A model generated the notes under the pieces. It saw only the letters and a program-made list of their open reading frames with translations, searched no databases and was not told where the DNA came from. Positions 11,416 through 28,636 of a stretch of 64,000 bases of DNA are shown piece by piece. Position numbers and translations under genes: made by a program. The stretch is taken from positions 124,001 through 188,000 of the forward strand of contig SHZT01000003.1 of the NCBI GenBank assembly GCA_009692185.1. Direction: 5' to 3'. The stretch is from Gemmatimonadota bacterium. GTDB taxonomy: Bacteria; Gemmatimonadota; Gemmatimonadetes; Gemmatimonadales; GWC2-71-9. The first letter of the stretch is position 1, and the number at the start of each line of letters is the position of its first letter.

Positions 11416-11507
11416 CGAACGTGGCGAATGGCCACGCGAGGCCCCGCAAGTCTTTCTACGTTACGCTCGGCTCGGCGGCCGAGTCAAGCGCCAAGTTGGC
11501 GCGGCGC

Positions 11508-11590
11508 TGCCGGCGGCCGGATTCGAACCGACAAGGGCCGAAGCCCAGAGGCTTGCGGGGCCTCCGCGTTTGCCATTTCGCCACGCCGGC
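11508..11590 (-). tRNA. Class II tRNA, Leu-like body with CGC anticodon loop
   Basis: A complete cloverleaf can be folded on the minus strand: 7-bp acceptor (GCCGGCG with CGCCGGC), D stem GCG/CGC with GG in the loop, 5-bp anticodon stem GAGGC/GCCTC, a long variable arm with GGGC-TTCG-GCCC, T stem GTCGG/CCGGC and loop TTCGAAT, discriminator A. No CCA is encoded. The body resembles tRNA-Leu. The seven-base anticodon loop reads CCCGCAA, which puts C at position 33 (normally U) and CGC at 34-36, the anticodon for Ala codon GCG. So this is either an unusual tRNA or a decayed tRNA-Leu. Confidence 0.75.
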
Positions 11591-11732
11591 AGCTATCCGG
11601 TTGCGAACCAGGCAAGCCCGAGGGCCCAGACGGGAGACCCCACAAGTGCTACCACCGCCGGGAACACGATTGCATAACAGAGAGGGCACCGCGTAACCAA
11701 CATGACGCCCACGAGGTGCAGAAAAACGCGTT

Positions 11733-26237: not shown

Positions 26238-26555
26238 TTACCGGTGACGATATACCCGGTGATTGTTCCGGTGAATGATCACGACCGGCGCCGGCCGGTA
26301 CACCCGCACGACCTGCACGCGGGGCGCGGCGTAGCGGTAACCACGATAGGAATTCGAGTAGCGATAGGAATTGGAATAGTTGTAGTGGTACTGGCCGTAC
26401 GACGCGCGAGGCGTATACGCGTACACGCGCTGCACGTAGCCATGGCGATGACCGCCATCCACGCGAACTGAGACTCGAACCTGGGCATTGCCAGCTTCGG
26501 GAGCCGCAACCGCCAGCGCGAGAGCCGCGAGACCTGCCAACATGAGCCGTTTCAT
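26238..26555 (-). CDS. Small secreted Tyr/Arg/His-rich protein
   Basis: A 105-residue protein with a signal peptide (about 1-25, ending AGNA-Q). The mature region is low complexity and very rich in Tyr, Arg, Ser and His, with repeats such as NSYRYSNSYRGYRYA and a C-terminal half with Val-Arg-Val strands and HRNNHRVYRHR. ATG 26555 has GGAGGG 6 nt upstream. Small basic secreted proteins of this look occur in several soil phyla without known role. It lies downstream of the selenoprotein gene on the same strand. Confidence 0.8.
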   Translation of the reverse strand: MKRLMLAGLAALALAVAAPEAGNAQVRVSVRVDGGHRHGYVQRVYAYTPRASYGQYHYNYSNSYRYSNSYRGYRYAAPRVQVVRVYRPAPVVIIHRNNHRVYRHR

Positions 26556-26687: not shown

Positions 26688-26915
26688 CTAAGGGCGGGAA
26701 CCGATCAGCTTGAGTACCTCGCCTGGCTTGGCGTGCCGTCCGGTTTGAAGCTTAGAATAGATAAGGGTTCCATCAACGGTCACTTCGAACGCGCCGCCGG
26801 AGCTCTGGACGAGCTTCACCGTCGCGTCGGGGTGCGCCTGCTGGATCTCGGCCGCCAGACCGGCGGCCCGGGGTTCATAGTGTCAGACGACGCAATACTG
26901 AATGGCGACGTGCAT
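26688..26915 (-). CDS. SelW/Rdx family selenoprotein (in-frame TGA = Sec)
   Basis: A 75-residue thioredoxin-like redox protein of the SelW/Rdx family. Reading from ATG 26915 (GGAG 8 nt upstream) the frame gives MHVAIQYCVV, then TGA at 26885-26883, then HYEPRAAGLAAEIQQ, SSGGAFEVTVDGTLIYSK and a stop at 26688. With TGA as selenocysteine the product has the family redox motif Cys-x-x-Sec (C8, U11), at the exact place of CxxC/CxxU in homologues, and the conserved GGAFEV core. A SECIS-like hairpin follows the TGA. Gene callers would miss or truncate this gene. No selA, selB or selD is in the window. Confidence 0.88.
26850..26868 (-). promoter_or_regulatory. Bacterial SECIS hairpin in the SelW-like gene
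   Basis: GGCCGCC-GGTCT-GGCGGCC on the minus strand: a perfect 7-bp stem and a 5-base loop GGUCU starting 22 nt after the UGA. The loop contains the GGUCU seen in the E. coli fdhF SECIS, where the G and U contact SelB, and the spacing is in the bacterial range. Confidence 0.8.
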
Positions 26916-27025
26916 CACCGCTCTCCGTTACTTTCGCCCACAAGTTAACTCTAAACCCAAGCACCTGCATGCTGGCTAACTGGCTGTGGCTTGCGGATTT
27001 GGACCGGTTTACCCACATTGCCTAC

Positions 27026-27058: not shown

Positions 27059-28636
27059 ATGTCCGTTGCCTGTCGTCGTTTGTCGTCGCTCTTCGTCGCG
27101 CTCGTGGTTTGGGCGGCGGCGACCATTCCGGCGTCCGCTCAATCAGGTCGGGGCGGCCAGATCGAAGTCGGCACCTACGGCTCCGTCGCCATGTACGACA
27201 ACACGGCCCTCGGCCTCCAGCGCGAATTCGGCGCCGGCGGGCGATACGGAATTTTCTTGAGCCGCGTTCTCCAAGTTGAAGGAAGCGGCGACTACACCAT
27301 GACCCACCAGACACTCACGGGTCAGGCGGTGAACGTCGCACGAGTCGGCGGCACACTTCTGCTCAACGCGCGGCTCGGCGGCATCGGCTCCCTTTACTTT
27401 GGCGCCGGCGCCGAGCAGCAGGCATATCGCGGCGCGCTGAGCTTCAACGATGTCGCGTTCCACGGCGTCATCGGCGATCGACTTTCGCTGGGCGGACGCA
27501 CTGCCCTCCGCATCGAAGGGCGCGCGGCCTACGTCCCCACGAGCAACGCGCCTCTTTCGCCTGGCAAGTCGTTGAATCTTTCCGCGACGGCCGGCCTCTC
27601 GATTTTTGCATTCGGTGGCCCGCCGCGTGACGACGACAAGGACGCTGTCGGCAACAAGCGCGACAAATGCCCCGCCACGCCCACCGGCGCTACAGTGGAC
27701 AACACCGGTTGCCCGGGCGACGGCGACACCGACCAGGTTCTCAACGGCCTCGACGCCTGCCCCGATACGCCCAAGGGTGCAACGGTTGACGCCAAGGGCT
27801 GCCCCTCCGACGCCGACAACGACAAAGTCTTCGACGGCATCGACGTCTGTCCCGACACGCCCGTGGGCGCGACGGTAGACGCCAACGGCTGCCCCGGCGA
27901 CACCGATGCCGACAAGGTGTTCGATGGCCTCGATCAGTGCGCCGACACACCGTCCGGCGCGATCGTTGACACGACGGGCTGCCCCAAGGACACCGACGGC
28001 GACAGGGTCTTCGACGGCCTCGATCAGTGCGCCGACACGCCGCCTGCCACCGAGGTCGATCCCCGTGGCTGCGCGGTCATCAAGGACCAGGACGGCGATG
28101 GCGTGGGCGATCCCAGCGATCTCTGCCCCAACACGCCGCCCGGAACCAAGATCGACGCGACCGGTTGCCCGGCTGACGCAGACGGCGACGGCGACGGCGT
28201 AGACAACTCCGTTGACCGCTGCCCTAACACGGCACGCGGCACGAAGGTGGACGCGGTGGGCTGCCCGATCCTCTTCGAAATCGTCGAGGGCAAGGCGCGG
28301 CCGATCATCTTGAAGGGCGTCACGTTCGCGGCCGGCCGCTCGGCGCTCACGCCGCAGTCCTATGCGGTGCTCGACGAGGTCGCGTCCTCCCTGGTGGCGA
28401 ACCCCATGGTGCGCGTCGAGATCCAGGGCCACACCGACTCGACCGGCGTCCGGGCGAAGAACGTCGCGCTGTCCCAGTCGCGGGCAGCCGCGGTTCGCGC
28501 GTACCTGGCCAGCAAGGGCGTGGCCGGAGACCGCCTCGTGGCCAAGGGCTACGGGCCCGACAAGCCGATTGCAACCAACAAGACGCCAGCCGGCCGGGCG
28601 CAGAATCGCCGAGTCGAGCTGAACATGATCCCGTAG
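27059..28636 (+). CDS. OmpA family protein with thrombospondin type 3 repeats
   Basis: Outer-membrane-anchored peptidoglycan-binding protein, 525 residues. Signal peptide 1-28 (PASA-Q), an N-terminal beta-rich region (about 30-190), seven to eight TSP3-type calcium-binding repeats (about 195-405, units like DTDADKVFDGLDQCADTP with a Cys pair per unit), and a C-terminal OmpA domain (about 415-525: VRVEIQGHTDSTG, LSQSRAAAVRAYL, GRAQNRRVEL). GAGG precedes the start by 4 nt. The stop overlaps the next gene's start. Confidence 0.93.
   Translation: MSVACRRLSSLFVALVVWAAATIPASAQSGRGGQIEVGTYGSVAMYDNTALGLQREFGAGGRYGIFLSRVLQVEGSGDYTMTHQTLTGQAVNVARVGGTLLLNARLGGIGSLYFGAGAEQQAYRGALSFNDVAFHGVIGDRLSLGGRTALRIEGRAAYVPTSNAPLSPGKSLNLSATAGLSIFAFGGPPRDDDKDAVGNKRDKCPATPTGATVDNTGCPGDGDTDQVLNGLDACPDTPKGATVDAKGCPSDADNDKVFDGIDVCPDTPVGATVDANGCPGDTDADKVFDGLDQCADTPSGAIVDTTGCPKDTDGDRVFDGLDQCADTPPATEVDPRGCAVIKDQDGDGVGDPSDLCPNTPPGTKIDATGCPADADGDGDGVDNSVDRCPNTARGTKVDAVGCPILFEIVEGKARPIILKGVTFAAGRSALTPQSYAVLDEVASSLVANPMVRVEIQGHTDSTGVRAKNVALSQSRAAAVRAYLASKGVAGDRLVAKGYGPDKPIATNKTPAGRAQNRRVELNMIP

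Follow-up and report, generated by a model that had tools for sequence, protein, structure and literature searches.

In E. coli, the SECIS element of fdhF has a GGUCU apical loop and lies a short distance after the UGA codon; formate dehydrogenase is a common bacterial selenoprotein. Selenoprotein W (SelW)-like proteins with a CxxU motif and a bacterial SECIS element were reported in Sargasso Sea data (PMC1088965), and the SelW-like family was the most numerous one in the GOS survey, with 427 selenocysteine (Sec) and 56 cysteine forms (PMC2398784). Known since 2005, SelW-like selenoproteins of bacteria rank among the most common. No report dedicated to SelW in Gemmatimonadota was found in a literature search that covered few subscription journals. 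On the basis of sequence comparisons, the window (the whole stretch of 64,000 nucleotides that was analyzed) almost certainly contains a bacterial SelW-like selenoprotein gene of the Rdx family, in which UGA would be read as Sec by means of a hairpin together with SelB and tRNA-Sec.

The selW-like gene and the selenocysteine machinery

The gene occupies a minus-strand frame that starts with an ATG at 26915-26913, ends with a TAG at 26690-26688, and has the TGA as its sole interruption (Table 1). With the TGA read as U, the 75-residue protein is MHVAIQYCVVUHYEPRAAGLAAEIQQAHPDATVKLVQSSGGAFEVTVDGTLIYSKLQTGRHAKPGEVLKLIGSRP, which places a CxxU redox motif, C8-V-V-U11, near the N terminus. The original prediction of a 75-codon frame with a good start, of an in-frame TGA three codons after Cys8, and of Rdx/SelW sequence on both sides of that TGA was confirmed in each respect: a Shine-Dalgarno-like GGAG precedes the ATG by 7 nt, the TGA is codon 11, and the Pfam Rdx profile (PF10262) matches residues 2-71, spanning the whole protein, with an E value of 8.7e-22 and a score of 77.6 bits against a cut-off of 22.6. 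The NCBIfam model NF041051 (SelTWH_Campy) was also matched above its cut-off (93.8 bits versus 88). The suggestion that ordinary gene calling would miss the gene holds for a plain ORF listing, which shows no gene here, but not for NF041051, a "(seleno)protein" model that already matches it. The gene is the only Rdx match in its genome. The solved Rdx structures related to it by sequence (2fa8, 2obk, 3dex, 2oka, 2ojl, and 2ljk) are distant and mostly of uncharacterized proteins; the similarity to 2fa8 has an E value of 2.1e-10.

Table 1. Features of the selW-like locus, in window coordinates
Feature	Position	Strand	Basis
selW-like gene, 75 codons, TGA as predicted selenocysteine, stop TAG	26688..26915	minus	translation, Pfam Rdx, NF041051, homologues
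In-frame TGA, codon 11, predicted Sec of CxxU motif	26883..26885	minus	direct reading; TGA in 80/80 nearest relatives
Cys8, putative resolving partner of Sec in CVVU	26892..26894	minus	translation; kept in all relatives listed
Shine-Dalgarno-like GGAG, 7 nt 5' of ATG	26923..26926	minus	read directly
SECIS hairpin, 7-bp stem GGCCGCC/GGCGGCC, loop GGUCU, start 15 nt after TGA	26850..26868	minus	third-position covariation and GGT excess, 78 distinct sequences

The source genome (2.63 Mb in 30 contigs, 99.9% complete) was checked for selA, selB, selC, and selD, and all four were found, including selB and tRNA-Sec, without which the selenoprotein assignment could not stand. The scores were 514.9 bits for selA, 351.5 bits for selB (over the curated cut-off), 71.1 bits for tRNA-Sec (selC, anticodon UCA), and 379.1 bits for selD, which has no internal stop. 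When formate dehydrogenase was sought in this genome as a second selenoprotein, no match exceeded the cut-off and no stop was present inside the matches.

The next gene downstream (26238-26555, minus strand) encodes a small protein rich in Tyr, Arg, and Ser that has a signal-like N terminus and no Pfam match. The divergent neighbor (27059-28636, plus strand) combines thrombospondin type 3 repeats and an OmpA domain with a weak β-barrel match, and genes related to it seem to be found again close to selW in certain other Gemmatimonadota. No strictly conserved operon partner emerged, phosphofructokinase-like and OmpA-type genes being found near some relatives by a crude ORF clustering that includes spurious antisense frames. 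A scan for promoters and terminators gave nothing above chance.

Conservation of the TGA and the cysteine forms

Relatives were collected from one genome per species with a query that had cysteine at residue 11, so nothing favored relatives with a TGA. The scan found 145 relatives, of which the best 80 were kept. All 80 carry a TGA at the same codon and, rather than stopping there, read on into conserved Rdx sequence. These nearest relatives belong to at least eight phyla (Gemmatimonadota, Acidobacteriota, Chloroflexota, Planctomycetota, Myxococcota, Pseudomonadota, Thermodesulfobacteriota, and Krumholzibacteriota). Substitutions after the TGA are concentrated in third positions (149, 119, and 304 at codon positions 1, 2, and 3, respectively), a pattern indicating that the frame downstream of the TGA is under coding constraint. 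Within the phylum, 150 of 298 genomes had an Rdx match, and among the matches listed 145 of the 150 contained TGA, with one TGA in 144, two in one, and none in five. Full selB was present in 135 of the 144 TGA-SelW genomes versus about 84 of the remaining 154 genomes (Fisher p about 2e-15). Eight of the nine TGA-SelW genomes without full selB carry a tRNA-Sec of at least 70 bits; the ninth, G286, lacks both full selB and a strong tRNA-Sec, probably because this genome is incomplete (85%). In the genomes of the nearest relatives, selB over the cut-off was absent from three of 20, and those three are draft assemblies.

Four of the five TGA-less matches (G051, G070, G195, and G212) scored far higher than the rest, and G051, G070, and G212, read individually, represent a different cysteine subfamily. 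This CTQC/CTGC subfamily, which also comprises the gammaproteobacterial sequences L139-L168, has the same Pfam domain as the window gene but forms a separate clade (100/100 support), has RAAWxAQE where the window clade has RAAGLAAE, and lacks the hairpin. The only cysteine form inside the Sec clade comes from the single-contig genome G128, in which the SelW motif is C-V-G-C, TGA is absent, no SelB exceeded the cut-off, and no tRNA-Sec match exceeded the gathering score. Cysteine occupies the Sec position in this homologue, whose genome lacks a full SelB and a good tRNA-Sec. In the tree, G128 lies on a long branch within the Gemmatimonadota selenocysteine group (group support 99/98), a nesting that suggests that Cys replaced Sec secondarily. 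In the G128 gene (L133, 3211-2980, minus strand), the loop codon has changed from Gly to Ala and five of the seven stem pairs are left; a phosphofructokinase-like frame directly follows it.

Two other readings of the TGA were weighed against these data. If it were a true stop, or a sequencing error or pseudogene in which one base change had broken a CxxC Rdx gene, plain ORF calling would yield no gene, as is the case, and TGA is one base away from both TGC and TGT. This account is already refuted because the TGA is conserved across phyla; its prevalence among the phylum matches listed, the coding constraint downstream, and the selection on the SECIS likewise stand against it, and we regard its probability as negligible. 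UGA is reassigned in some bacteria, and the codon might specify an amino acid other than Sec, such as Trp carried by a near-cognate or recoded tRNA. Against such decoding are the UCA anticodon of tRNA-Sec, the presence of SelA, SelB, and SelD, and the alignment of the position with a cysteine in G128, a genome without full SelB or a Sec-quality tRNA-Sec; we give it hardly any chance. The data favor Sec at codon 11.

The hairpin after the TGA

A hairpin with a GGUCU loop was found with the position and sequence originally predicted, and its proposed identity as a SECIS is backed by covariation across species. Its folding energy is ordinary for GC-rich DNA (z of -0.01); folding energy was dropped as evidence for a SECIS since it gives no signal in such DNA. 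Moreover, the Ala codons of AAGLAA by themselves fix four of the seven stem pairs. Both properties would be expected if the hairpin simply reflected the RAAGLAAE peptide motif and some other element directed Sec insertion, and for the same reasons only a comparison between species can show selection on the hairpin. We compared 78 distinct sequences with 2000 shuffles, which do not correct for shared ancestry between the sequences. The three stem pairs left free by the codons join third positions, and one of them is nearly fixed (C-G in 77 of 78). The R5.3-A11.3 pair is Watson-Crick in 66 of 78 sequences (shuffle mean 37, maximum 48), as G-C in 47, A-T in 10, C-G in seven, and T-A in two. For A6.3-A10.3, 70 of 78 are Watson-Crick (shuffle mean 54, maximum 62), comprising 61 C-G, five G-C, three T-A, and one A-T, with six further T-G pairs. 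None of the 2000 shuffles reached the observed counts, and, despite the uncorrected ancestry, the same pair changes occur in distant phyla.

The loop gave a parallel result. Its glycine is encoded by GGT in 64 of 66 cases versus 59 of 503 Gly codons in the rest of these genes (p about 3e-47), where GGC is usual, and where Ser replaces this glycine the codon is AGT in 11 of 12. The GGT bias and the retention of AGT argue that the loop G-U is selected at the RNA level. Gamma-type cysteine homologues could not serve to control for codon choice at the loop glycine, having no Gly there; a complete hairpin in the same register was found in none of 23 cysteine homologues. Because the freely varying pairs covary and the loop codons depart from usage, a by-product of the peptide motif is very improbable, if marginally less so than the two alternative readings of the TGA. 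We conclude from the comparison between species that the hairpin is a genuine, selected bacterial SECIS. A more tentative idea, which we consider somewhat less likely to be right than wrong, is that the RAAGLAA motif in this SelW clade is maintained by the SECIS RNA no less than by the protein, such that loss of selB and the change from U to C in G128 would have led to the Gly-to-Ala change in the loop and to decay of the stem.

By analogy with established bacterial Sec insertion, SelA would make Sec on its tRNA using selenophosphate from SelD, and SelB with selenocysteyl-tRNA-Sec would bind the GGUCU-loop hairpin just after the UGA. SelB would then deliver selenocysteine in this organism in place of chain termination by release factor 2. 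The 75-residue product probably has a thioredoxin-like fold with C8-x-x-U11 as its redox pair. Its most likely function is that of a small thiol/selenol oxidoreductase that would cycle via a Se-S bond.

Leucine-type tRNAs and relation to known systems

A further observation, which is no part of the selenoprotein finding, concerns a tRNA at window positions 11506-11591 (minus strand) that was called as tRNA-Ala(CGC), yet is class II and tRNA-Leu-like. It has a long variable arm, G1-C72, A73, and the anticodon CGC (Ala), with C33 in place of U33. A second leucine-type tRNA in the same genome (contig C19, L198) has the anticodon GTC (Asp). Similar tRNAs were found in 21 of 101 genomes of the bacterial family, 19 of them examined, with the anticodons CGC, GGC, CAC, GAC, GGT, CTC, or GTC; the relatives carrying them are L176-L192, L196, and L197. 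The anticodon identities in the family are Ala, Val, Thr, Glu, and Asp, all the tRNAs have A73 and 7-bp acceptor stems, and the anticodon arms pair in the rows cut in register. They resemble the nev-tRNAs of nematodes, which accept leucine in vitro although their anticodons read Gly or Ile codons (PMC4300185). The leucine-type tRNAs appear to be a bacterial equivalent of these molecules and might place leucine at codons for other amino acids. This observation may merit more attention.

For the selW-like locus, the analysis shows that the gene is real even though plain ORF calling skips it, and that SelW is as a rule UGA-coded in a phylum for which few descriptions of it exist. The comparison between species also proves an in-frame bacterial SECIS with unusual clarity. 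The window hairpin is like the E. coli fdhF SECIS in its GGUCU apical loop, which lies 21 nt from the UGA in the window, and differs from it in having a plain, unbulged 7-bp GC stem. With the SelW-like family of the Sargasso Sea and GOS data (PMC1088965, PMC2398784), the window gene has in common the CxxU motif, the short Rdx domain, the SECIS just after the UGA, and the apical-loop G, whereas its origin in a Gemmatimonadota-type genome, a placement based on the closest relatives that carry a name, sets it apart. The general picture of selenoproteins is unchanged by the window gene, which adds a member to this family with no difference in kind.
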